Shown here piece after piece: positions 9,395-36,322 of a DNA stretch of 43,865 bases. This stretch comes from an uncultured Verrucomicrobia subdivision 3 bacterium. Lineage in GTDB: Bacteria > Verrucomicrobiota > Verrucomicrobiia > Limisphaerales > UBA11358. The notes under the pieces were generated by a model that did not search any database, was not told the origin of the DNA, and saw nothing but the letters and a program-made list of their open reading frames with translations. The translations under genes were made by a program, and so were the position numbers. Position 1 is the first letter of the stretch. Each line of letters starts with the position of its first letter. Where the stretch lies: positions 1 to 43,865 of the forward strand of contig CAILMI010000042.1 of NCBI GenBank assembly GCA_903835255.1, written 5' to 3'.

Positions 9395-9468
9395 GCGGGT
9401 GTGGTTCAATGGTAGAATGTGGCCTTCCCAAGGCTGAGACGAGGGTTCGATTCCCTTCACCCGCTCCA
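9395..9468 (+). tRNA. tRNA-Gly(CCC), integration site of the island array
   Basis: The cloverleaf is complete: acceptor GCGGGTG/CACCCGC, D arm GTTC...GAAT, anticodon loop TTCCCAA (anticodon CCC), T loop TTCGATT, discriminator T and an encoded CCA. Its last 30 bases (9439-9468) recur at four downstream places in the same orientation, marking this gene as the attachment site used by several integrated elements. The tRNA itself remains intact, as is usual when elements restore the 3' end. Confidence 0.97.
9439..9468 (+). repeat. att core copy A (3' end of tRNA-Gly)
   Basis: This is the 30-base core inside the tRNA gene, from ACGAGGGTTC through CCCGCTCCA. It is the left junction of block 1. The next 28 bases (9469-9496) match the bases after copy D at 27 of 28 positions, so the element ends are related as well as the core. 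Confidence 0.93.
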
Positions 9469-9849: not shown

Positions 9850-10083
9850 TTATCTCTCCTCCGCCTCGGCGATGATCTTTTTCAAGGGCACGCCCAAAGC
9901 TGTTGCAATCGCTTTTGCTGTGTCTAGATTAGGGCTTCTTTCTTCACGTTCCAAAAGCCCAATGTAAGTTTGATGTAAACCAGCTTTTTTGGCTAATGCT
10001 GCACGACTCAAACTCAATTTTTCGCGGTGTTTCTTCACAACTCGCGAAAAAGCATCTGAAAAGTGTGATTGATACTTCTGCAT
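9850..10083 (-). CDS. XRE-family HTH transcriptional regulator
   Basis: The 77-residue protein is a single Cro/CI-type helix-turn-helix domain: LSRAALAKKAGLHQTYIGLL followed by EREERSPNLDTAKAIATALG. It resembles small phage or island repressors and would bind an operator in the element. It is divergent from the LamG gene, with about 100 bases between them (10084-10180), which would hold both promoters. Confidence 0.9.
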   Translation of the reverse strand: MQKYQSHFSDAFSRVVKKHREKLSLSRAALAKKAGLHQTYIGLLEREERSPNLDTAKAIATALGVPLKKIIAEAEER

Positions 10084-10180: not shown

Positions 10181-11104
10181 ATGAAAACTACACTTAGGAT
10201 TTTAGCTGTTTTATTAACCGCCGGCGGCTTGTTGGGATTTGATGCCAGCGGCCAAAGCTGGATGACGAATGGGCTGGTGGCGTATTATCCGTTTAACGGG
10301 AATGCCAATGATGCGGCGGGGACAAATAATGGTGTTGTTAATGGAGCAACATTAACGACAAATCGATTTGGGATTTCAAATTCGGCGTATTACTTTAATG
10401 GAACAAACAATTATATTGAATTAGCCTCGTCTACTAACGTATTTGGATCGAAAGATTATTCAATTAGTTTGTGGTTCAATTCTCTTGCGCTACCAAATTT
10501 TAGCATTCCATCGCAAGCGGCTTGTTGTTTAATCTCCAAGGGACAAAATAACTTTGAGCTTTTAACGGGATCTTCAACCTCCGCATTGGGGATGCACTTT
10601 TTGCCTAGATCTGCGAGTGGGAATGATTGGAACACACCGGCATCCACTTACCAAACAAATGTTTGGCAAAATGTAATTGCAATTTACAAACCCTCTACAA
10701 CAAACGTTTATGTCTTTTTAAACGGAAGCAATCTTATCTTGTCAGGCCCAAGCTTAACGCCTATTGGATTGGACAAAACGAATTCAGCTAGATTGGGTTT
10801 TAGAACTGATGGGACGCTGCCTTTTAAAGGGTCAATAAGTTCGGTCCGGATCTACAACCGTGCCCTTTCCACAAGTGAAGTTTCCCAGTTATACGCAACT
10901 GAATCGATGCCGCCGAATCTCGGGATCACATACTTTAGCAATGCTCCTGTTGTCATTCACCCCACAATTACTGGTTCTGGGGGGACTCTCATGATGGCCA
11001 CAAATCTGAACTCTCCGAGTTGGGTTCCGGTCACCAATTATGTACCGTTCACCGGCTACCAGATTCTCAGCGCCCCAACCAACGCTTTCTTCAAATTGCA
11101 GTAA
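10181..11104 (+). CDS. Secreted LamG/concanavalin-A-like domain protein
   Basis: This 307-residue protein has a signal peptide (MKTTLRILAVLLTAGGLLG, cleavage near ASGQS). A LamG-like jelly roll follows at about 30-240: GLVAYYPFNGNANDAAGTNN, an AYYFNGTNNYIEL segment, YSISLWFNS, and the closing SSVRIYNRALSTSEVSQLY. The C-terminal ~60 residues form a short beta-rich module ending in AFFKLQ, a type common at the end of secreted verrucomicrobial proteins. It probably binds a glycan outside the cell. It converges with the next gene, overlapping by 14 bases at the 3' ends. It is cargo of element 1. Confidence 0.85.
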   Translation: MKTTLRILAVLLTAGGLLGFDASGQSWMTNGLVAYYPFNGNANDAAGTNNGVVNGATLTTNRFGISNSAYYFNGTNNYIELASSTNVFGSKDYSISLWFNSLALPNFSIPSQAACCLISKGQNNFELLTGSSTSALGMHFLPRSASGNDWNTPASTYQTNVWQNVIAIYKPSTTNVYVFLNGSNLILSGPSLTPIGLDKTNSARLGFRTDGTLPFKGSISSVRIYNRALSTSEVSQLYATESMPPNLGITYFSNAPVVIHPTITGSGGTLMMATNLNSPSWVPVTNYVPFTGYQILSAPTNAFFKLQ

Positions 11105-11771
11105 AATTCTCAGCCTTGCGCAAAATAACGATATTAGAATTTGGATGTTTTAGCTGGAAACCTAGTCGCAAATAAAGTTTTACGAGTTTTGTGGTCCCAT
11201 CCTGTGTTTTTTTGCTCCTCCAGTCTCCAGGATTTTTGAGGTTTGTTCTCAGGGGAAATTGATTTGTCATGGCTCGCCCCTGTATTGCAACAATCTTGAG
11301 CTTTTCTGCGCCAAACAAGGTTTTAACAACTTGGCTAAGGAGAAAATGCTTGAGCTTGTAAAAATTGCCTTGGCAGGCTGGATCGCGCTTTAAAATAAGG
11401 ACGTGACATAAAAATCCCCCCTCGCTAGGGGTCAAACCAAAATCAAATTGGGCGGTGCCATCTTCTGATTCGAGCCTGTAAACTGGGCGCTTTCTGATTG
11501 TGTTATAATCCCCGCGCATTGTCGCAATTGTTTTGTAAATCCTTAGGTTCGTTCCGTTGCAACAAATCGAATCAAAAAGCTCTTTTTCAATTTCTTCTGT
11601 GAAAATTGATAAAGGGGTTGACGGAAAATTATAAAGGCAGTCGGGGATGGGAATTATTGTACCCAATGACTGATTTTCTTGATTGCCCCAATCAATTAAA
11701 GGGTTCGCACATCCTAATGATAAATTCGGCACACAATAACGATGAAAAACATCTCCTATACCAAGTCCCAT
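11091..11771 (-). CDS. Hypothetical protein, 226 residues
   Basis: I do not recognise a family. The protein is rich in Cys, Pro and aromatic residues near the N-terminus. The C-terminus, KLVKLYLRLGFQLK then a final beta strand NIVILRKA, resembles the end of GNAT acetyltransferases, but the acetyl-CoA motif is not visible, so this is only a hint. AT-rich codon use matches the rest of element 1. It lies downstream, on the same strand, of the hairpin-rich tract 11826-12235, whose predicted minus-strand promoter could also serve this gene. Confidence 0.55.
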   Translation of the reverse strand: MGLGIGDVFHRYCVPNLSLGCANPLIDWGNQENQSLGTIIPIPDCLYNFPSTPLSIFTEEIEKELFDSICCNGTNLRIYKTIATMRGDYNTIRKRPVYRLESEDGTAQFDFGLTPSEGGFLCHVLILKRDPACQGNFYKLKHFLLSQVVKTLFGAEKLKIVAIQGRAMTNQFPLRTNLKNPGDWRSKKTQDGTTKLVKLYLRLGFQLKHPNSNIVILRKAENFTAI

Positions 11772-11825
11772 ATCGGTTTAAATCTTCTTTTAATCCTGAA
11801 CCGGCAAAAGTTTGAAAATAAACAT

Positions 11826-12235
11826 CAATTTGCTGCGCAAATTGAAACATGGCTTTGCCATGTTTAATCTTCTGCCGCTTATCAAAACGCTCTTGATAAA
11901 CTTTTCCAACAGCCCATCAAGGCAAGGTTTCTCCCTGCTGAGAGAGTAAGCAGAACCTGTATTGGCTCGGAATACTGGTTGCCCGATTATTCCTTGAGTT
12001 CTGCAACTCGGCGAATTAACGCCAGCAACGGTCTGTGCTCCCCTGTAAGGTTAAACGCACACCTTGTTTCAGGATTTAAAAGGGTTCTAGCCCATACCTG
12101 AATCAGCTTGTTGTTTTAAATGAGTTCGGCGCGTCCTTGTTTCAGGAATTGACTGTTAATTCAATCCGCCATGTGTGCTGCTCGCAGCAATTTCTTTCCG
12201 TCTAACTCATGCTCGTACCTAACCAATTTTCGAGC
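11826..12235 (-). ncRNA. Candidate structured RNA (hairpin-dense tract)
   Basis: At least thirteen short inverted repeats are packed almost end to end. Examples, in plus coordinates: 11826-11833/11837-11844 (8 bp, 3-base loop), 11845-11853/11857-11865 (9 bp, 3-base loop), 11879-11885/11893-11899, 11925-11939/11949-11958 in two steps, 11959-11963/11971-11975, 11996-12000/12005-12009, 12010-12013/12020-12023, 12042-12051/12061-12073, 12074-12081/12114-12121, 12121-12126/12204-12209, 12146-12150/12158-12162, 12176-12180/12185-12189 and 12211-12215/12231-12235. CCTTGTTTCAGGA is repeated at 12062 and 12135. No reading frame explains it. Strand is assigned from a predicted promoter at 12241-12269. 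It does not resemble tmRNA, RNase P RNA or 6S RNA. It could also be a structured origin. Confidence 0.5.
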
Positions 12236-12240
12236 TACTT

Positions 12241-12269
12241 ATTATCTGTATTGCCGATCTTTTATCCAA
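12241..12269 (-). promoter_or_regulatory. Predicted promoter reading into the hairpin tract
   Basis: On the minus strand, TTGGAT (12264-12269) and GATAAT (12241-12246) are separated by 17 bases, giving a good -10 and a weak -35. Transcription would begin near 12234, exactly where the hairpin-rich tract begins. It lies just past the stop of the preceding minus-strand gene. Confidence 0.45.
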
Positions 12270-12274
12270 AATAT

Positions 12275-12553
12275 CTATATTCCTTCTGCTTTCTGCCACA
12301 TGGGCATTACTGCCCCGCCATTTCTTCTGCTGATTTTGTAATCACTTCTTTTTTTGATGTAGCCTGCATGCTGGAATTGCCTAAACATGGCCCCGCTGAA
12401 TTTTTTGATCAAACTGGGGGGCATTGATTCCTTTACTGCCATTGAATAAAACGAGTCACCCGAAAAGGCTTCATTTTTCCTAATCAAAGCAAACATGATA
12501 TTTTCGGCCACAAGCGCCCATTCACTAGCGGAATTTATAATTTCATTCATCAC
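12275..12553 (-). CDS. Small phage/island-type protein, 92 residues
   Basis: The pattern of a long N-terminal helical part followed by GAMFRQFQHAGYIKKRSDY and a short C-terminal stretch ending in VMPMW resembles a class of small phage proteins with a winged-helix-like end (generic form: G-x-hydrophobic-R-x-h-x-x-x-G-h-I). This is a family-level resemblance from memory, not a domain hit. The start may be 12553 or the next Met one codon on. Function is unknown; a role in element replication or regulation is possible. Confidence 0.6.
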   Translation of the reverse strand: MMNEIINSASEWALVAENIMFALIRKNEAFSGDSFYSMAVKESMPPSLIKKFSGAMFRQFQHAGYIKKRSDYKISRRNGGAVMPMWQKAEGI

Positions 12554-12571
12554 TCTTGATTACACATAAAT

Positions 12572-12754
12572 TTACCCAATCTGACCGATTAATTTGTTTT
12601 TGAAATCCCTTTTGTTGGCAGCTTTGCAGATAAATATATAAGTCACCCCCACACCCAATCTTAAGACGGCCAGCCACAAATAATTGATAAATATGGGGAT
12701 GGGGCTGGTTTGAGGGCAATTAGTGCATATCACAAAGAATACCCCCAAGGGCAC
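12572..12754 (-). CDS. Possible small membrane protein, 60 residues
   Basis: This short frame has a hydrophobic N-terminal part and a second hydrophobic segment (YLWLAVLRLGVGVTYIFICK), then a basic tail. It lies upstream of the 92-residue gene on the same strand. I cannot assign a function, and it may be a chance frame in AT-rich DNA. Confidence 0.25.
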   Translation of the reverse strand: MPLGVFFVICTNCPQTSPIPIFINYLWLAVLRLGVGVTYIFICKAANKRDFKNKLIGQIG

Positions 12755-12984: not shown

Positions 12985-13263
12985 ATGGAAAATATATCTT
13001 TAATCAATAACCAAAAGACATTTGCAGAAATTAGGCCTGCCGATATAAGTGAAATTAGGCCGGAATTTGGTACGACTGCCGACGTTAGGAAATACTACGG
13101 CATCAAAAGGGGTACGCTCTACAATTTGCATAAGTGCGGTAAGGTGCGCGGGAAAGTCTTGCGCGTCACTGGTGAATTCAAAGGCGTAAGAATATGGGAC
13201 ATGTCGAGCATCCGCGATTTTATTTTATCACAGGGTGAAGAATTACTAGCACTTGCTGCTTAG
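12985..13263 (+). CDS. Small DNA-binding protein, possible excisionase
   Basis: The 92-residue protein has a compact HTH-like region in its middle: FGTTADVRKYYGIKRGTLYN, then a wing KVRGKVLRVTGEFKGVRIWD, then DMSSIRDFILSQ. The layout is like AlpA/MerR-type excisionases and small phage regulators. GGGAG lies 4-8 bases before the ATG as ribosome-binding site. Its end overlaps the integrase stop by 4 bases, tail to tail. Position beside the integrase supports a role as recombination directionality factor; this is inferred. Confidence 0.65.
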   Translation: MENISLINNQKTFAEIRPADISEIRPEFGTTADVRKYYGIKRGTLYNLHKCGKVRGKVLRVTGEFKGVRIWDMSSIRDFILSQGEELLALAA

Positions 13264-14405
13264 TTAGCTATTTTTGGCAAATTCAAACTTGGCAGATTTT
13301 TCATTGCGCTGCGCAAATTGTCCAAATCTAAGTGGGTATAATCTGAGTTCACTGCCTTTGTTGTCTGTCCAATCAGAGCCATACGAGTCTCTTGGTTGAC
13401 GCCGTTATTTGCCAGCAATGTATTTGTCGTATGCCGTAAACTGTGAAATGACAACTTGCTAAAATTACGTTTGCCCTGCCCTTTTTCCGTCTGCGGGTCA
13501 ACACCGGCTTCAACCATGATTCTCTTGAAGGATTCACTCAATCCGCTCTTGCCTCTGGTTTCCTTGCTGGCGAGTGACGGCGTAATAAATGGATTCGTGC
13601 TATCGGTTGAGGCGATGCCTTGAAGGTATTCATCAAACTCCGCCACAATCGGCATGATAACCCGCTTCTTGTGTTTGCTCTCAATGTAATCAATGACTCC
13701 CTTGCTGAAATTCACATTGCTCCACTTCATCGAAGCGCAATCAGATAGCCTTGCACCAGTAAAGTAACCAAACAAAATCGTGGATTTCCATTCTCCCTTT
13801 GCCGATGAAAAAATTTTTAAGACTTGCTCAGGCGTGAATTCCATCCGTACCGACGAAACTACATTGATGGGCCGCAGCGCTAGAGCTTTTTCAAAGGGAT
13901 TGTGATCAATAAAGCCAAGCCGTCTTGCCAGATTAAAGACCGAACTCAAAATTTTGGCGTCAGTGCGAATTGTCTTGGTTGCAAGTTTTTGTGCTTCGCG
14001 GCTTTTAATGAAGCTTGCGGCGTCTCTGTGACTAACTTTTGACAGTAGCATCGCCGACTTCTTACCAAGATGCTTCAAAAAAACGTCAACAACGTGAGCG
14101 TAGCGTTCCTGCGTTCCTTCATTTACCTTGCCCTTCAACCATTCCCGCATGAAATGTTCAACCGTATCGCCGTGCATCTGGTCTTCACCGTGACGCTCTA
14201 AAATGTCGTTGAGTGTTCTCCGCGCTGCCGATTCTATGAACCGGCCCGCCTTGGCGTCTTGTTCCGCCTTCTCAAATTCGTTGGCTATGCGTTGCGCCTC
14301 TTTTTTGTCAGCCGTGCCGGTGCTACGATTGGTGCGGGAGCCGCTTGAAAGCGTGAAAACGGCAATCCAGTTTTTGCAGTCCTTTTTGCGAGTTAGTGAA
14401 GCCAT
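13260..14405 (-). CDS. int: Tyrosine recombinase (integrase) of element 1
   Basis: The 381-residue protein has an N-terminal arm-binding-like part (about 1-60), a SAM-like core-binding domain (about 75-165) and the catalytic domain. Catalytic residues visible: Arg in TGARLSDC, Lys near KHKKRVIMP, His and Arg in FHSLRHT, and the nucleophile Tyr in SDYTHLD. The usual second His/Trp position, nine residues before the Tyr, is Gln (IGQTT), a tolerated variation in some integrases. The start at 14405 (MASLTRKKD) is preferred; the frame is open further up but that part overlaps the arm sites at 14409-14429. The gene is about 100 bases from the right junction and reads inward, as in other tRNA-borne islands. 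Confidence 0.93.
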   Translation of the reverse strand: MASLTRKKDCKNWIAVFTLSSGSRTNRSTGTADKKEAQRIANEFEKAEQDAKAGRFIESAARRTLNDILERHGEDQMHGDTVEHFMREWLKGKVNEGTQERYAHVVDVFLKHLGKKSAMLLSKVSHRDAASFIKSREAQKLATKTIRTDAKILSSVFNLARRLGFIDHNPFEKALALRPINVVSSVRMEFTPEQVLKIFSSAKGEWKSTILFGYFTGARLSDCASMKWSNVNFSKGVIDYIESKHKKRVIMPIVAEFDEYLQGIASTDSTNPFITPSLASKETRGKSGLSESFKRIMVEAGVDPQTEKGQGKRNFSKLSFHSLRHTTNTLLANNGVNQETRMALIGQTTKAVNSDYTHLDLDNLRSAMKNLPSLNLPKIAN

Positions 14406-14408
14406 ATA

Positions 14409-14429
14409 CTTACTACCAAAACTTACTAC
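14409..14429 (+). promoter_or_regulatory. Right arm-type sites of element 1
   Basis: CTTACTAC occurs at 14409-14416 and 14422-14429, 13 bases apart, identical in sequence and spacing to the pair at 9532-9552. The sites lie directly upstream of the integrase start, so integrase binding could also repress its own gene. Confidence 0.75.
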
Positions 14430-14502
14430 AGTCAGGACGGTCAGGCAAGGCAAATAAGTCATTAAATAAGTATAAAAACGGCATTTATAACAAGGGGTAG
14501 AA

Positions 14503-14532
14503 ACGAGGGTTCGATTCCCTTCACCCGCTCCA
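14503..14532 (+). repeat. att core copy B
   Basis: This copy is identical over 30 bases to the tRNA-Gly 3' end at 9439-9468 and in the same orientation. The bases before it differ from the tRNA (aa versus ag), so only the 3' part of the tRNA is present. It is the right junction of element 1 and the left junction of block 2. Confidence 0.95.
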
Positions 14533-22066: not shown

Positions 22067-23521
22067 ATGAATAGCTTTTCTGGCTTCAATCCATCGAAAA
22101 AATTGTGGGGCCCGCTCCGTTGGACATTCCTGGCGCTGTTCATCCCCTGCCTCGCCATCGCCCAAACTCAACCGGTGGCCGTGACAGTGGCAGCCCCCGG
22201 CCAGTCGGCTGAACTCTCGCCGCGCTTTCTAGGCTTGAGCTACGAATCTTCGATGCTGCTGCCGAAGGAGGGACGCTACTATTTTGATGCCAACGATCAG
22301 GCGCTCGTGAATATTTTCAAGACGCTCGGCATCCAAAGCCTGCGCATCGGCGCCAATGCGGTGGATGATCCGAGCATTCCGATTCCGCAGGAAAAAGATA
22401 TCGACGCCTTGTTCAGCTTTGCCCGGGCAGCCGGGGTGAAAGTGATCTATTCGTTCCGCCTGAAAAATGGCGATCCCGCCGATGCCGCACGGCTCGCCAG
22501 CTACATCGCCTCGCACTACGCAGATCTGCTCGACAGTTTTTCCATTGGCAATGAGCCGAATTTTTACTTCAAAACCTACGAATCCTTTTTCGCGGAATGG
22601 AAACCCATCTATGACGCCATACTTAAGGCCGTCCCCCAGGCGATGCTGGATGGGCCGAGCACCTCGCCCAATAAATTCACGGTGGAACTGGCGAAAGATC
22701 TGTTCGCCGGTGGCCATCTGGCCATGGCGAGCGATCATCATTATTTCCTGAAATCCGGCCGGGCGGGCGAGACCAATCCGCCCGCGACCCGCGCCCGGTT
22801 TCTGGCCAACAAACTCCATGACGATTATGAAAAGGACTATGCCCAGGTCGGCGCGGTTTTGGCCGCCCGAGGAGTGCCCTATCGGATTGACGAGATGAAC
22901 AGTTGCTACGATGGCGGGGCCAAAGAGGCGAGCGATACCTACGCGTCCGCCTTGTGGGCGCTGGATTGCACGCATTGGTGGGCGGCGCATCATATTCAGG
23001 GTGTGAATTTTCACACGGGAGAATTGGTGGGGCGCGATGGCAAGTTTGGCCCGCCGAATTACGCCGCGTTTCTGCGTCAAGCCGATGGCCAGGGATTTGT
23101 CACCCGGCCGCAAGGTTATGCGTATCTGGCTTTCAGCCAGGGCGCGCTGGGACGCCCCCTCGAAGTCAAGATATCCACGGCCTCCACGTTTAATTTCAAC
23201 GCCTACGCTTATCAAGATGCCGACGGATCCATTCATCTGACCTTGATCAACAAAAGTTACGGCGACAAAGCCCAGCCGGCAAAAGTTTCTCTCCAATTGC
23301 CCCCCGGCACGAATTCGGGCGCATGGCAACAGCTGGATTTAACCCAGAAAGATTCGGACGTGGCTGCCAAATCTGGAGTCTTGCTGGGCGGAGCTGTGGT
23401 TGATGCCCAAGGCATCTGGCCGGGCCAATGGAAAAAGATGAAGGGCGGGAAGGCTGGCAAGCTGACGCTACAGGTTGCACCTGCTTCCGCGACCATCCTG
23501 CAGTATTCTCCGGCGAAGTGA
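22067..23521 (+). CDS. GH79-like beta-glucuronidase
   Basis: The 484-residue protein has a signal peptide ([17 protein letters not shown]). The GH79 pattern is seen: GLSYESSML near the N-terminus, [10 protein letters not shown], the acid/base Glu in [10 protein letters not shown], and the nucleophile Glu in [13 protein letters not shown]. The C-terminal beta domain runs from about 385 ([20 protein letters not shown]). It would remove glucuronic or methylglucuronic acid from xylan side chains or other glycans. The ATG at 22067 is chosen for the signal peptide. It is followed after 4 bases by a truncated sulfatase gene. Confidence 0.85.
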
Positions 23522-23525
23522 TGCC

Positions 23526-23738
23526 ATGAAAAAAACACTCGTTCTGTTGTCGCTGTTGGCGACGAGCGGGGCCGGATGGGCCGCCGAGTCGCGGTCGAAC
23601 ATCCTGTTTCTTTTTGCTGACGACCAGCGGGCGGACACGATTGCCGCGCTGGGGAATCCGGTCATCAAGACGCCCAACCTCGACCGGCTGGCCCACGCGG
23701 GACTGGCCTTCAACCGCGCCTACATGCAGGGCGGATGA
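23526..23738 (+). pseudogene. Sulfatase gene truncated before the active site
   Basis: The first 70 residues are a signal peptide and the start of a family S1 sulfatase ([18 protein letters not shown], the metal-binding Asp pair, then [20 protein letters not shown]). Homology breaks off just before the C/S-x-P-S-R motif that carries the formylglycine; the frame stops at 23738. The missing part (usually about 400 residues) is not found nearby. It cannot be active. Confidence 0.9.
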
Positions 23739-23800
23739 CGCTGTTATTTACCATGAAAAAAAGGCATTGACTACGGGAAATACTTGGTTAAGGTGGCAGG

Positions 23801-30846: not shown

Positions 30847-30869
30847 TTGATAATCAAGCACTTATGAAG

Positions 30870-30890
30870 AAGTGCAAGTGAAGTGCAAGT
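30870..30890 (+). repeat. Paired repeats after core C
   Basis: AAGTGCAAGT occurs at 30870-30879 and 30881-30890, 11 bases apart, beginning 24 bases after the core. Possible arm-type sites, although nearer the core than in the other blocks. Confidence 0.45.
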
Positions 30891-30988
30891 AAAACGGCCT
30901 TCTAAAATTCGATCTACAGAGGGTGATAATCTTACGATTCGACCGTTCGCGAGGTGTTCTTACCATTCCTCCTGTAGATTAAAGTCTT

Positions 30989-31021
30989 GCACACATCCTC
31001 AAATATATTGAGGATGTGTGC
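30989..31021. promoter_or_regulatory. abiE operator: 14-bp inverted repeat
   Basis: GCACACATCCTCAA and its exact complement flank a 5-base centre and end one base before the AbiEi start codon. AbiEi antitoxins are known to bind inverted repeats in their own promoter and repress it, so this is probably the autoregulatory operator. Confidence 0.75.
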
Positions 31022-31022
31022 G

Positions 31023-31628
31023 ATGCGGAAACAGCGAAAAATTGACCCGTTTAGCGCGCTGATGGAAATTGCTCAAGCGCAACAGGGCTACTTCACCACG
31101 AGGCAGGCCATAGCCGCCGGTTACGCGGACAACACACACACCTATCACGTCCGCACGGGAAATTGGGAGCGGATTCAACGCGGCATTTATCGGCTGGCAC
31201 ATCTTTCGCCAGCGGAAGATGGATTGACGCCGGCTTATCTTCTGTGGACGCGTGGTCGTGATGACAAGCCGCTTGGGGTGCTTTCGCATGAGACGGCGTT
31301 GAGTTATTTCGATCTGGGTGATTTTAATCCACCGAAAGTCCACCTTACTGTGCCGCCTGATTTTCGCCGGAACAGCCAGCCGCCCAAGGCGGTTGTCCTC
31401 CATCACGCCCTAATCACTCCGGCGGAAACCACGCTCCTGCGTGGGATGCCGATTTGCCGGGCAACCCGCACCTTGTGTGATGTGGTGCTAAAAAATATTT
31501 TGGCTCAGGAAGAATGTCGGCGGTTGGTCAAGGAAGCTCGGCGGCGCGGACTGATTCTTGACAGTGAAATTACGGCGGCGAAAGCGAATCCTAAATTCTC
31601 CGCCATCGCTGGAAAGCTGTTCCCATGA
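31023..31628 (+). CDS. abiEi: AbiEi-family antitoxin (type IV TA)
   Basis: The 201-residue protein has an N-terminal winged HTH (GYFTTRQAIAAGYADNTHTY, then RIQRGIYRLAH) and the C-terminal antitoxin domain (LSHETALSYFDLGDFNPPKV, LTVPPDFRR, GMPICRATRTLCDVV). It represses its own operon and counters AbiEii. The ATG at 31023 is chosen because the operator ends just before it; a TTG at 30987 would place the operator inside the gene. The stop overlaps the next start (ATGA). Confidence 0.9.
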   Translation: MRKQRKIDPFSALMEIAQAQQGYFTTRQAIAAGYADNTHTYHVRTGNWERIQRGIYRLAHLSPAEDGLTPAYLLWTRGRDDKPLGVLSHETALSYFDLGDFNPPKVHLTVPPDFRRNSQPPKAVVLHHALITPAETTLLRGMPICRATRTLCDVVLKNILAQEECRRLVKEARRRGLILDSEITAAKANPKFSAIAGKLFP

Positions 31629-32482
31629 ATCGCTACGAAACTCCCGTCGCGCTGAGGCGTGCTCTTGAAGACCGGATCATTGCTTTGGCGACCAAGACGG
31701 GCGATGACAATCAGCGATTGCGGCGGCAGGCTGCATTTGACCGGTTATTGTGCCGTTTATTCCAGAATGAAAAATCGCCCTGGTTGCTAAAGGGCGGTTA
31801 CGCAATGGAACTTCGCATCCGCGGTGCGCGCACGACTCGGGACATTGACCTCGCGTTACGCAGATCGGCGGCAACTCCCAAAGGGTGGAATGTTGAAGTC
31901 GTGACCGCCATGCTACGTCAGGCTGCCGCAATCAATCTGGCGGATGGTTTTGAGTTTACCATTGGCGAAGCAGTTCTTGACCTTGATGCAGCACCTTCCG
32001 GTGGCGCACGATTTACAGTTTTAGCACAGATGGCCGGCCGGCAGTTCGCCCAATTCCATATGGATGTCAGTTCGGGCGATGTCCTTCGCGAGCCTTACGA
32101 AATACTTGAAGGCCGGGATTGGTTCGGTTTTGCCGGCTTGCCCCGCGCTCGTGTGCCAGCGGTTTCGCCAGAGGAGCAATTTGCTGAAAAAATACACGCT
32201 TACACCTTGCCGCGAGCAAGCCGGGAGAATACCCGCGTGAAGGATTTGGTGGATTTAGTTTTGCTGATCGAACAGGCTAAACTCGACGCCACCCGACTTG
32301 CGAAATCCATTCGTGAAACGTTCCAGCGGCGTAATACGCACAGCTTTCCAACCGCACTTGCCGCACCGCCGGCCTCATGGTCGGTGCGATTTTCAGAAAT
32401 GGCGGAGGAATGCGGACTGGAGCCGGACATTCAGAAACATTTCAGTGTGGTCACGCAATTCATCAACAAGCTGGATCTTTGA
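31625..32482 (+). CDS. abiEii: AbiEii-family nucleotidyltransferase toxin
   Basis: This 285-residue protein belongs to the AbiEii/AbiGii nucleotidyltransferases, whose members modify tRNA or other targets. Visible motifs: WLLKGGYAMELRIRGARTTR followed by DIDLALR (the Gly-Gly and Asp-x-Asp metal site), SPEEQFAEKIHAYT with the conserved Lys, and TRVKDLVDLVLL with the KD-x-x-D motif. Together with AbiEi it forms an abortive-infection toxin-antitoxin unit. It overlaps abiEi by 4 bases. It is the only cargo of cassette 3. Confidence 0.93.
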   Translation: MNRYETPVALRRALEDRIIALATKTGDDNQRLRRQAAFDRLLCRLFQNEKSPWLLKGGYAMELRIRGARTTRDIDLALRRSAATPKGWNVEVVTAMLRQAAAINLADGFEFTIGEAVLDLDAAPSGGARFTVLAQMAGRQFAQFHMDVSSGDVLREPYEILEGRDWFGFAGLPRARVPAVSPEEQFAEKIHAYTLPRASRENTRVKDLVDLVLLIEQAKLDATRLAKSIRETFQRRNTHSFPTALAAPPASWSVRFSEMAEECGLEPDIQKHFSVVTQFINKLDL

Positions 32483-32502
32483 ACTGGCAGATGAACTGCT
32501 TC

Positions 32503-32529
32503 TGACCATCTAACGCCATTTTACACCAC
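32503..32529 (+). repeat. Conserved right-end sequence of cassette 3
   Basis: Starts TGACCAT and ends TTTACACCAC. It matches 34158-34184 at 23 of 27 positions. It lies 7 bases before core copy D, so it is probably a recombination or packaging signal of the cassette family. Confidence 0.7.
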
Positions 32530-32536
32530 AGAGGAA

Positions 32537-32564: not shown

Positions 32565-32827
32565 ATTTCGATTCTAGTCAATAAAATCAATGTGATCCTA
32601 ATTTAGCAGCAACTAGAAATGGCTCACCTGCTAACACAAACTGCTAACGTGTTGAATTTTTTCACAGCTGTTTCCAAGGGTTCAGGAGTGTCATGAATTC
32701 AAAGAAAAGGGCAAAATATTGCTTTTGGTTGGTCCTTTGCGTTCAAAACTTTATTCATGCCATAACCAAAATAATCTGCATTTTGACGATGAAGAATTTT
32801 AGTTTGCACAGCAGCCAATTCGCATGC
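32565..32827. other. Left end of cassette 4, no gene
   Basis: Holds the shared left-end sequence and the paired arm-type repeats. Nothing else is recognisable. Confidence 0.5.
32628..32648 (+). promoter_or_regulatory. Left arm-type sites of cassette 4
   Basis: CTGCTAAC occurs at 32628-32635 and 32641-32648, 13 bases apart and 64 bases after the core: exactly the geometry of element 1, but with a changed sequence in both repeats. Confidence 0.7.
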
Positions 32828-34015
32828 TTATTGCAACCAGTGTTCAGCCGGTTTCGACAAAAACTCATCGAGTGGAATTCCTTGTCCGCCAACAAGCAGT
32901 TTGCGTTTCGGCTTGAATTGTTTGGAAAAAGCCTCCATTCCTGGCAGGGCTTCGGGACGGCGTCCGCTTTTCACTTCGATGGCGGTGATGGTCTTGCCCC
33001 GGCGTAAAATGAAATCCACTTCCTGACTGCGTTCCCGCCAATACGTCAATTCTATGTCGCTTCCAAAACTGGTGTTGAGCAAGTGCGCGCCCACACTGGA
33101 TTCGACCAATCGTCCCCAATAATCGCCGTCCCGACGGGCTTCAGTTATTATCCGGCTGTCCTGCGCTGTCATCAAAGCGGTGTTTAGCACTTGTAGTTTG
33201 GGACTCGATCCCCGTTGGCGCATGATCCCGTACGCATATTTGGAAAGTCCCGCCACCATGCCTGCGCCTTGCAGCAAATCGAGATAGTGTGCCAGCGTGA
33301 CGGTATTGCCGGCATCTGTCAGTTGGCCCAGCATCTTCTGATACGAGAGAATCTGACCGGAATAAGCGCAGCCCAGATGAAACAAACGGCGTAGCAACGC
33401 GGGTTTGTCCACGCGCGTCATCAGCAGAATGTCGCGGGAGAGGGTGGTTTCAATCAGCGAATCTGTTACGTAACGCCGCCAGCGTTCAGGGCTGGCAATT
33501 AGTTCTGCCGAACCAGGATACGCACCGTAAAAAATGTATTGCTCCAAATTCCAGCCAAACGCCTCGCGCATTTCACCGAATGACCAGTGGGGCACTGGAA
33601 TCAACTCGAATCGTCCGGCGAGGCTTTCCGTCAAACCGCTTTGAATCAGAAGTGGAGCCGAACCGAGCAGAACAACTTTCAGCGGCATACCCGCATGGGT
33701 GTCGGCATCCCAAAGCAACTTCACCACATTGGACCAATCTGAAACTTTTTGTACCTCGTCCAAAACCAACAGTGCGCCGGTCTTGCCTTCCTTCGCCTTG
33801 AGCCGGGCCAGATCCCATTGCTGCTCAATCCAAGTGCGGTCTCGCAGGCTCGGCTCATCCGCCGAAGCGTAGTGGGCCGGCAGTTTGGTCGCCAGCATGA
33901 CCTGACGTGCCAAAGTGGTTTTACCCACCTGGCGCGGTCCAGCTAGCACCTGCAGGAAACGGCGTTTTTCTTTGAGCCGATTCAACAATTCGTCATGCAA
34001 CAACTGGCGTTTCAT
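32828..34015 (-). CDS. DUF4143 ATP-binding protein (AAA type), third copy
   Basis: The 395-residue protein has Walker A LAGPRQVGKTTLARQ near residue 25, Walker B LLVLDEVQKVSDW near 83, sensor VVLLGSAPLLI, a winged-helix-like middle with a KMLGQLTDAGNTVTLAHYL segment, and a C-terminal core EVDFILRRGKTITAIEVKSG. It differs considerably from the two copies in block 2, so it is not a recent duplicate. It is the sole gene of cassette 4 and reads opposite to the abiE pair. A palindrome and extra half-site precede its start. Confidence 0.91.
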   Translation of the reverse strand: MKRQLLHDELLNRLKEKRRFLQVLAGPRQVGKTTLARQVMLATKLPAHYASADEPSLRDRTWIEQQWDLARLKAKEGKTGALLVLDEVQKVSDWSNVVKLLWDADTHAGMPLKVVLLGSAPLLIQSGLTESLAGRFELIPVPHWSFGEMREAFGWNLEQYIFYGAYPGSAELIASPERWRRYVTDSLIETTLSRDILLMTRVDKPALLRRLFHLGCAYSGQILSYQKMLGQLTDAGNTVTLAHYLDLLQGAGMVAGLSKYAYGIMRQRGSSPKLQVLNTALMTAQDSRIITEARRDGDYWGRLVESSVGAHLLNTSFGSDIELTYWRERSQEVDFILRRGKTITAIEVKSGRRPEALPGMEAFSKQFKPKRKLLVGGQGIPLDEFLSKPAEHWLQ

Positions 34016-34022
34016 ACAATTA

Positions 34023-34050
34023 ACTCAATGCGTTGAGTAAAAATACTCAA
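34023..34050. promoter_or_regulatory. Palindrome upstream of the third DUF4143 gene
   Basis: ACTCAA/TTGAGT (34023-34028 and 34033-34038) with a third ACTCAA at 34045-34050, beginning 8 bases before the minus-strand start codon. Likely operator half-sites. Confidence 0.5.
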
Positions 34051-34157
34051 AATCCGGATGCCGTCAAAATCTTTCTGTAGGGTATTCGACCCGTAAAGCA
34101 CCGGAAGGGCAAACCAGCTCAATTAGTCTGAAAGCTATTTACGAAAAGGCATTGTGT

Positions 34158-34184
34158 TGACCATTGAACACCACTTTACACCAC
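34158..34184 (+). repeat. Conserved right-end sequence of cassette 4
   Basis: Matches 32503-32529 at 23 of 27 positions, including the TTTACACCAC end. It lies 9 bases before the common GAGGG of core copy E. Confidence 0.7.
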
Positions 34185-34191
34185 CATAGAC

Positions 34192-34772: not shown

Positions 34773-35012
34773 ATGAAGACCTTGATTCGAGATGCCCGCC
34801 AGCTTGGCAACTTGATTCGGCGCGCCCGCAAGCAGCAGTCGTTGAGTCAGAAGAGTCTTGGCGACCGTGCCGGACGGCGCCAGGAAACCATTTCGCTTTT
34901 GGAGAACGGTAATCCTGCGGCAAAAATTGCCACCGTACTTTCGGTTCTGGCTGCGCTCAATCTCGAGTTGCAGGCGGCTCCCCGCACCAAAGGGGAATAC
35001 CTTCCTGACTGA
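34773..35012 (+). CDS. hipB: HipB-like XRE antitoxin
   Basis: This 79-residue protein is one Cro/CI-type HTH domain: LGNLIRRARKQQSLSQKSLG then RQETISLLENGNPAAKIATV. It overlaps the hipA start by one base (TGATG), so the two are translationally coupled. It would bind HipA and repress the operon through the palindrome upstream. Confidence 0.9.
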   Translation: MKTLIRDARQLGNLIRRARKQQSLSQKSLGDRAGRRQETISLLENGNPAAKIATVLSVLAALNLELQAAPRTKGEYLPD

Positions 35013-36322
35013 TGCCGCGGTCACGTCAACACAAGCCGTTGCTGGTTCTTCTGAATCATCGTGTCGTGGGACGATTAGAAAAAGAATCCTCCGGAGCCAT
35101 TCATTTTCATTACGACGGGCGTTGGTTAGCAAAGGGCGATGCCATTCCGGTCTCATTGTCGTTACCGTTGCGTGAGGAGGCATATCGGGGCGAGCGGGTG
35201 ACGGCGGTCTTTGAGAACCTATTGCCGGACTCAGAGACGCTGCGACGGCGGATTGCAGAAAAAGTCGGGGCGCGCGGCTCTGACGCCTATAGCCTGCTTT
35301 CTGAAATTGGGCGGGATTGCGTGGGAGCACTGCAATTTATTCCGGCAGGGGAAGAGTCCCCAACGAAGAAACCTGGTATAGCGGGCAAGGAGGTCACTGA
35401 CCTGGAAATTGAGCAACTGCTCGCCAACTTGGCGCGGGCGCCGCTCGGTTTAGATCGAGAGCAGGATTTTCGTATCTCTGTCGCCGGCGCACAGGAAAAA
35501 ACGGCACTGCTCCGCTTCAAAGAGAAATGGCTGAAGCCGCTGGGCACCACGCCGACCACGCATATTCTGAAACCCCAGATTGGAGCACTGCCTAACGGGC
35601 TGGATTTATCCAACAGCGTGGAGAATGAATTTTACTGTCTCCGTCTCCTGGCTGAATTTGGCCTGCCCGTGGCTGCGGCAGAGATTAAAACATTTGAGAG
35701 CACAAAGACGTTGGTGGTCGAACGCTTTGACCGGAGATGGATTGATAAAAAACAATTGCTACGCCTGCCGCAGGAAGATTGCTGTCAGGCATTGGGCTGC
35801 CCCCCAAGCCGAAAATATCAAAGCGAAGGCGGCCCGGGCATCGTGGACATACTAAAACTGTTGAAGGCGGCGGATACGCCCGCCGAAGACCAGCACCTGT
35901 TTCTGAAATCGCAGATTATCTTCTGGTTGATGGGTGCGACGGATGGTCACGCCAAGAATGCCAGTATCTTTCTGGGACCGGAAGGCCGCTTTCAGTTAAC
36001 ACCGTTCTACGATGTGTTGTCGGCGCAACCGAGTTTGGACCGTCGCCAGATCGAGCGTAAACAGATGAAGCTGGCCATGTCAGTGGGAGATAGCCGGCAT
36101 TACCGCGTGGATGAAATTCGTGGCCGACATTTTGTGCAGACGGCGCTGCGAGGAGGCTTGTCGAGACGGGCAGCGGAAGAGACGCTGGATGCAGTGGCCG
36201 CAATGACTGCAGATGCGTTTGATTTGGTGGAGGCGCAACTTCCGGCTGGATTTCCTAGGAAGATTCATACCTCGATCAAAGCCGGAGCCTTGCAGCGGAT
36301 GAAACAGATGGGCGGGAAATGA
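35012..36322 (+). CDS. hipA: HipA-like serine/threonine kinase toxin
   Basis: The 436-residue length is typical. The N-terminal HipA couple domain (VVGRLEKESSGAIHFHYD, then LPLREEAYRG and FENLLPDSETLRRRIA) precedes the kinase part. The Gly-rich loop area FRISVAGAQEKTALL, the LVVERFDRRW strand, the catalytic ATDGHAKNASIFL and the DFG-equivalent TPFYDVLSAQ are all present, so the kinase looks functional. HipA kinases phosphorylate aminoacyl-tRNA synthetases and halt growth. It follows the last tRNA fragment of the array. Confidence 0.93.
   Translation: MPRSRQHKPLLVLLNHRVVGRLEKESSGAIHFHYDGRWLAKGDAIPVSLSLPLREEAYRGERVTAVFENLLPDSETLRRRIAEKVGARGSDAYSLLSEIGRDCVGALQFIPAGEESPTKKPGIAGKEVTDLEIEQLLANLARAPLGLDREQDFRISVAGAQEKTALLRFKEKWLKPLGTTPTTHILKPQIGALPNGLDLSNSVENEFYCLRLLAEFGLPVAAAEIKTFESTKTLVVERFDRRWIDKKQLLRLPQEDCCQALGCPPSRKYQSEGGPGIVDILKLLKAADTPAEDQHLFLKSQIIFWLMGATDGHAKNASIFLGPEGRFQLTPFYDVLSAQPSLDRRQIERKQMKLAMSVGDSRHYRVDEIRGRHFVQTALRGGLSRRAAEETLDAVAAMTADAFDLVEAQLPAGFPRKIHTSIKAGALQRMKQMGGK

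Follow-up and report, generated by a model that had tools for sequence, protein, structure and literature searches.

A hairpin-rich intergenic gap in a small integrative element of an uncultured Verrucomicrobia subdivision 3 bacterium: a candidate structured RNA

Setting of the tract and comparison with described RNAs

RCd22, a non-coding RNA of the Clostridioides difficile prophage phi027, is located upstream of abiF and is described in PMC12373285 as occurring mainly in a short form and also as co-transcribed with the gene. Type III toxin-antitoxin systems (ToxIN, CptIN, TenpIN) consist, in the account of PMC5086642, of an RNA stretch followed by a terminator-like hairpin and a protein gene. 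GOLLD and ROOL are presented in PMC12286853 as large RNAs of mobile elements, often near tRNAs, and for the PLE satellites of Vibrio the most abundant transcript is given as non-coding in PMC7567579. The locus considered here is compared with these systems. It lies in a window of 43,865 nucleotides, which is the whole stretch of DNA analysed, and belongs to a 3.17-Mb draft genome in 70 contigs. The tract of interest (11826-12235) is carried by an integrative element of 5,064 bp (~5.06 kb) located between 30-bp exact direct repeats at a tRNA-Gly gene. That the tract lies in an integrated element had been proposed in the first-pass annotation, and the exact repeat (9439-9468 and 14503-14532) together with a tyrosine integrase bears this out; with an integrase and att direct repeats, one of them in the 3' end of a tRNA gene, the element is of the tRNA-targeted tyrosine-integrase type. 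Its G+C content is ~0.34 to 0.49, lower than that of the DNA immediately before it (0.60 to 0.64). The features are as follows.

9439..9468, plus strand: attL, 30-bp direct repeat forming the 3' end of the tRNA-Gly(ccc) gene
9850..10083, minus strand: small HTH regulator of the element (HTH-type matches in PHROG, NCBIfam and PADLOC)
10181..11104, plus strand: LamG (concanavalin-like) cargo protein (PF13385, 1.5e-18)
11091..11771, minus strand: 226-aa protein without family match, directly downstream of the tract
11772-12274: gap between the 92-aa and 226-aa genes, two minus-strand genes
11845-11825, tail to 11815, minus strand: terminator-like hairpin, 9-bp stem, 3-base loop and T-rich tail, TGTTTATTTT
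11845..11865, minus strand: second tandem hairpin, 9 bp, 3-base loop
11826..12000, minus strand: proximal half of the tract, which carries the structure signal (fold z)
12001..12235, minus strand: distal half of the tract, ordinary by stem count and fold z
12241..12269, minus strand: promoter-like site, at chance level in a sigma-70-like scan
12275..12553, minus strand: 92-aa protein encoded upstream of the tract, with a very weak indication of a winged helix
12985..13263, plus strand: excisionase-like HTH protein (weak matches, phrog_66 at E 0.0041 and HTH_17 at E 0.018)
13260..14462, minus strand: tyrosine integrase (PF00589, 3.6e-17)
14503..14532, plus strand: attR, second copy of the 30-bp repeat

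The 30-bp 3' end of the tRNA-Gly gene is present in five copies with 0-2 mismatches, at 9439, 14503, 30817, 32535 and 34192 (0 expected by chance), which suggests that several cassettes bounded by att sites are stacked at a single tRNA gene. An AbiEi/AbiEii toxin-antitoxin pair is found within the 1.7-kb stretch 30847-32534, between two att copies, and a long perfect hairpin was seen by eye at ~30989-31021, where the first ORF of that stretch begins. The next att-bounded stretch (32565-34191) contains an AAA/DUF4143 protein, and a HipA-like protein is encoded at 35012-36319, past the last att copy. LamG-domain cargo recurs in elements or relics, being detected by Pfam in the window (10181-11104) and in L089 (4609-5850), and read from the sequence in L074 (2107-3162) and L117 (2245-3054).

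At the gathering threshold of Rfam 15 the whole window yielded only LSU rRNA, 5S rRNA and two tRNAs, none of them in the tract. Seven sub-threshold matches, with E-values up to 10, were located in the tract, the best being Gut-1 RNA (RF01706). Like Gut-1, the tract is a run of short hairpins with A-rich linkers; however, the match attains 31.1 bits at 11774-11873 (+), the gathering score being 50, and the flanking genes are on the other strand. With the abiF RNA motif (RF03085) and AbiF the locus shares the arrangement of a structured non-coding RNA, here a candidate one, in an integrated mobile element and directly upstream of a protein gene (PMC12373285). It differs in that RF03085 is not among the tract matches up to E 10, and in that the 226-aa protein has no Pfam match, Abi_2 included. 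The order of RNA stretch, terminator-like hairpin and protein gene is likewise that of type III toxin-antitoxin systems (PMC5086642), whereas the tandem repeats of their antitoxins are absent here (Tandem Repeats Finder, 0 rows in 11600-12700) and the 226-aa protein, unlike the toxins ToxN, CptN and TenpN, has no match in Pfam, NCBIfam or PADLOC. The tract resembles abiF RNA and the type III antitoxins in layout only; the defining tests of both failed. Mobile-element residence and the proximity of a tRNA are in common with GOLLD and ROOL (PMC12286853), but neither of these is among the seven Rfam matches of the tract up to E 10, and in comparison with GOLLD the tract is shorter and the evidence of structure modest. 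The inter-inverted-repeat RNA of PLE (PMC7567579) is non-coding and belongs to a small chromosomal satellite, two traits that the candidate RNA of the tract would share.

The best reading of these and the following data, to which we assign a tentative probability of roughly 0.38, is that the minus strand of the gap encodes a structured RNA by which the 226-aa gene is controlled.

Transcription signals, hairpins and folding

According to the first-pass annotation no protein reading accounts for the tract, in agreement with the absence of any ORF of at least 60 aa inside it; ORFs of 40-56 aa exist, and an ORF at 12209-12427 (+) overlaps its last 27 bases. The promoter-like sequence proposed to point into the tract fared worse, as it is the one sigma-70-like site (12268-12241, 9/12) in 1 kb in which 2.2 ± 1.7 are expected. 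On the other side, the terminator-like hairpin ends at 11815, ~43 bases before the start codon of the 226-aa gene (11771). Two terminator-like sites were found in 1 kb, 0.7 ± 1.0 being expected, and the second one is on the plus strand. These signals bear on the proposal that the tract is an independent large RNA, comparable to GOLLD and ROOL or to the RNAs of phage satellites, that would have its own promoter and act away from its neighbours. The length of ~410 bases, the location of the element at a tRNA gene, the terminator-like end and the precedent of the Vibrio PLE, whose most abundant transcript is non-coding (PMC7567579), would all suit such an RNA. It is nevertheless improbable, given a promoter at chance level, the lack of any Rfam match at the gathering score, with GOLLD and ROOL absent among the matches up to E 10, and a gap that accompanies the same two neighbour genes in the sole other complete locus found, that of genome G029.

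The density of hairpins was evaluated by counting perfect stems that do not overlap, have at least 5 bp and close loops no longer than 15. The tract contains 10 such stems against 3.8 ± 1.4 in 60 dinucleotide shuffles, of which 0/60 reached 10, and the stems of at least 7 bp are 3 against 0.5 ± 0.7. The 'about thirteen' inverted repeats originally announced are obtained only if shorter stems are counted, and the excess over the 410 bases, although real, is confined to 11826-12000: the remainder, 12001-12235, is ordinary, with 4 stems against 2.4 ± 1.2 expected. The adjacent pair of hairpins with stems of 8 and 9 bp and 3-base loops had been described exactly, at 11826-11844 and 11845-11865; these two are the strongest hairpins and are perfect palindromes. 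A further stem, described as closing ~90 bases, does have arms at 12120-12131 and 12199-12210 (12 nt, 83% complementary), but the latter arm is unpaired in the minimum-energy fold of the minus-strand RNA. The region also contains a two-copy 16-nt repeat, the copies being 73 bases apart.

Folding of the minus strand, the check suggested in the first-pass annotation, gave an energy beyond the shuffled controls (z -3.84 for 11826-12235, 0/100 shuffles as good), the plus strand yielding z -1.37 (9/100). Over the whole gap, 11772-12274, the values are -4.87 for the minus strand (0/100 shuffles as good) and -2.62 for the plus strand (1/100); in three other gaps, within the element or next to it, there was no fold excess (z -1.10 to +0.30). 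The signal concentrates in 11826-12000 (minus z -3.76, 0/100 shuffles; plus z -1.85, 4/100) and in 11826-11964 (minus z -3.75), and fades in 12001-12235 (-0.63 for the plus and -0.88 for the minus strand) and in 12047-12190 (minus z -1.03). The strand bias is uneven in windows of 200 bases: 11801-12000 scores -3.18 on the plus and -4.95 on the minus strand, and in 11701-11900 the plus strand equals or exceeds the minus strand (-3.51 vs -3.03, and -4.3 vs -3.0 in a scan of the whole window). In that scan, of 584 folds of 200 bases with mean -0.16 and s.d. 1.13, the fold beginning at 11701 is among the lowest and is not unique, as four folds elsewhere are at or below -3.85; the one over most of the 5S rRNA has z -3.7. 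The minus strand of 22951-23150 and 23551-23750 (z -4.4 and -4.2) folds as well as the tract.

Being symmetric, the two tandem hairpins contribute to the scores of both strands. When they were left out, the gap retained z -2.20 on the minus strand (0/100 shuffles) and -0.34 on the plus strand (35/100). This minus-strand-only excess is a modest sign of RNA, resting on the minus strand outside the tandem hairpins. The hairpins alone are no argument for RNA, since with DNA parameters, as single-stranded DNA, both strands fold about equally well (z -3.49 and -3.72). That equality, the palindromic perfection of the two strongest hairpins within a mobile element and the scores of both strands in 11701-11900 would agree with a DNA element, either paired palindromes to which the integrase, the excisionase-like protein or the HTH repressor would bind, or an origin for replication or transfer that is active as single-stranded DNA. 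Neither a replication gene nor a relaxase gene was recognised in the element, as judged by Pfam on five proteins and PHROG for the HTH protein, although two proteins are without family; the minus-strand excess outside the hairpins would be left unexplained, and the tract is not constant in the integrase/excisionase core, as the sister elements described below indicate. A DNA element is unlikely.

A more serious rival is that the gap is ordinary intergenic DNA, in which the tandem hairpins terminate transcription of the 92-aa gene and what remains is chance structure or decayed sequence. Much of the signal does come from the two hairpins, without which the plus strand falls to chance and the minus strand to the lower value given above; the distal half of the tract is ordinary, and comparable z values occur in the four other windows of the scan. 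However, the minus strand deprived of the hairpins still folds better than 100/100 shuffles. The relatives of the locus add one point on each side, and overall we consider terminators plus chance somewhat doubtful.

Relatives of the gap and of its neighbour genes

The order of the two genes recurs in G029, a genome of the same genus, in which a 92-aa gene, a long non-coding gap (567 bases) and a 248-aa gene follow one another on one strand. This recurrence of the order with its long gap speaks against ordinary intergenic DNA. The proteins are ~60-62% identical for the 92-aa pair and 36% for the homolog of the 226-aa protein. The setting is different, as a serine recombinase gene precedes the pair and McrBC-like genes follow it. 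In the G029 gap the fold has z -2.43 on the minus strand, that of the flanking genes, and -1.60 on the plus strand; the excess of perfect stems is not significant there (9 vs 5.8 ± 1.8, with 8% of shuffles having as many).

A relic in G015, another genome of the genus, preserves, on reading by eye, both ends of the 248-aa gene beside a stretch that is 92% identical to 358 bases of the G029 gap, together with a LamG gene and an HTH gene 88% identical to that of the sister element in G047. The two stretches differ at 28 sites plus gaps. Coding was not apparent in any of the three minus-strand frames covered, as substitutions are distributed 10/10/8 by codon position and each frame contains a stop in both sequences. 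Of the pairs predicted for the minus strand of G029, 98/114 can form in G015, against 99.6 ± 2.5 under random placement of the substitutions; for the plus strand 95/107 survive, against 95.7 ± 2.0. On the minus strand 55% of random mutants fold as well as G015 itself, and on the plus strand 6.7% do. Selection on the minus-strand fold thus finds no support in this only close pair of relatives, which leans, if anything, to the plus strand, a result without structural constraint that would be expected of ordinary DNA. The test is weak because the G015 copy is decayed, a weakness that does not turn the result. One putative compensatory change actually breaks its pair, and another is a lone C-G to U-A pair within an internal loop; a pair changed on both sides according to RNAalifold sits in a tiny hairpin, and no compensation is claimed.

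Convincing homologs of the tract itself were not detected. Alignments among the window tract and the gaps of G029 and G047 gave no score above the largest of 100 shuffles. As DNA, the tract had short matches only in phages and in plasmids (best E 0.1 in each) and in 48 other genomes of the genus (best E 2.9e-4). A covariance model of 11826-11964, built from one sequence only, recovered in 293 genomes of the order two matches, its own sequence and one in G449 at E 0.037, the latter not a convincing homolog. In seven local sources it matched its own sequence, the palindromic hairpins read from the other strand and a short stretch at E 2.4. Other identities were considered and rejected. Same-genus matches at ~11792-11816 were suspected of marking a repeated element; 15 stretches were retrieved and the four that were read are unrelated, coding by eye and attributable to chance, two of them resembling genes of NHL-type repeats. 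Imperfect 12-base inverted ends, seen by eye at ~11826 and 12195, suggested a transposon remnant, which is present in a single copy in its own genome at E 0.001. No convincing integron attC site was seen in the tract by eye. Among the open-licence papers listed no description of this element or RNA was recognised.

Four sister elements were covered, one of them, G047:C36 (L075), for ORFs only, with L115, L118, L119 and L120 left out. In G047:C11 (L074) the same att repeat is found on both sides, the integrase is 92% and the excisionase-like protein 77% identical, and HTH and LamG genes are present, the LamG being read from the sequence; neither the 226-aa nor the 92-aa gene is among its ORFs. 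G047:C36 has a 76% identical relative of the excisionase-like protein. The gap between LamG and the excisionase gene of G047:C11 folds with z -3.42 on the minus and -2.03 on the plus strand, with a long-range stem. A crossing 9-bp complementarity, AAGGAGTTT with AAACTCCTT, was seen by eye in L074 3317-3595 (minus strand) as a possible pseudoknot. In G465 (L117, with integrase, excisionase and LamG genes) 36 bases separate LamG from the excisionase gene, and in G437 (L116) a gap of ~250 bases lies beside it. Because these gaps differ, the integrase/excisionase recombination core does not include the tract as a constant component.

Searches of Pfam, PHROG, NCBIfam, PADLOC and PDB gave no match to the 226-aa protein, and among 387 genomes of the phylum it was found in one, its own. 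A 226/248 profile matched 4/384 genomes of the class, its own and three weakly (G128, G725 and G689); the G128 protein is unrelated on reading by eye, and the G725 match is probably spurious because its frame lies opposite a 570-aa ORF. The C-terminus of the protein may resemble GNAT acetyltransferases. The 92-aa protein gave phrog_27658 at E 0.083 and, as a profile against PDB, 10 matches, none below E 0.2; PF25521 was matched by its G029 homolog alone, at E 0.16. That profile was matched in 4/320 genomes of the order: its own, G029, G552 and G441 (E 8e-4, with internal stops). The homolog of G552 is distant (E 3.7e-14) and, in the ORFs read by eye, has no relative of the 226-aa protein beside it. 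In the 49 genomes of the family, own genome included, the 92-aa protein was matched in 5, three of these weakly (E 0.004 to 0.009), and the 226-aa protein in 2. A scan of the genome collection with the 92-aa alignment returned one locus, CAIKKJ010000185.1, a contig of an uncultured Verrucomicrobia subdivision 3 bacterium taken as G029:C185. Viral contigs contained no relative of the 226-aa, 92-aa or excisionase-like proteins.

Proposed control of the 226-aa gene

For the candidate structured RNA of the first-pass annotation there speak a strong fold excess, greater over the whole gap on the predicted minus strand, the lack of excess in three other gaps and the recurrence of the two-gene placement in one other genome. 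The proposal is weakened by the chance-level promoter, the ordinary half of the tract, the want of a homolog for counting compensatory changes, the random-level pair retention in two other genomes, and the performance of the plus strand in 11701-11900 and of both strands as DNA. Under the preferred reading, in which a structured RNA from the minus strand controls the 226-aa gene, transcription of that strand across the gap 11772-12274 would accompany that of the 92-aa gene or follow directly on it, and the transcript would fold into a structured RNA whose 3' end is the pair of tandem hairpins. The last tandem hairpin would act as a leaky intrinsic terminator ~43 bases ahead of the start codon, so that most transcripts would stop there and produce a short RNA of roughly 420 bases, whereas some would read through into the 226-aa gene. 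RCd22, with its short form and its co-transcription with abiF, is a precedent for such an arrangement (PMC12373285). The RNA would thereby set the level of the 226-aa protein and may also bind it, the protein being likely the regulated or bound partner.

A wider proposal, which is a long shot, would make of the locus a new RNA-protein pair of small Verrucomicrobiota integrative elements, in which a large, structured and fast-changing RNA, unrelated to ToxI, CptI, TenpI and abiF RNA, keeps the 226-aa protein in check through termination, and perhaps also by binding it, while the 92-aa protein adds a second level of regulation. Such a pair might serve as an addiction or anti-phage unit. If the RNA is not real, the locus would be a warning that terminators can produce hairpin density in an intergenic gap. 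If it is real, an RNA-controlled protein of unknown family would be added to the mobile elements of this uncultured group, and the locus would suggest that a structured gap can be held in place while its sequence changes beyond recognition.
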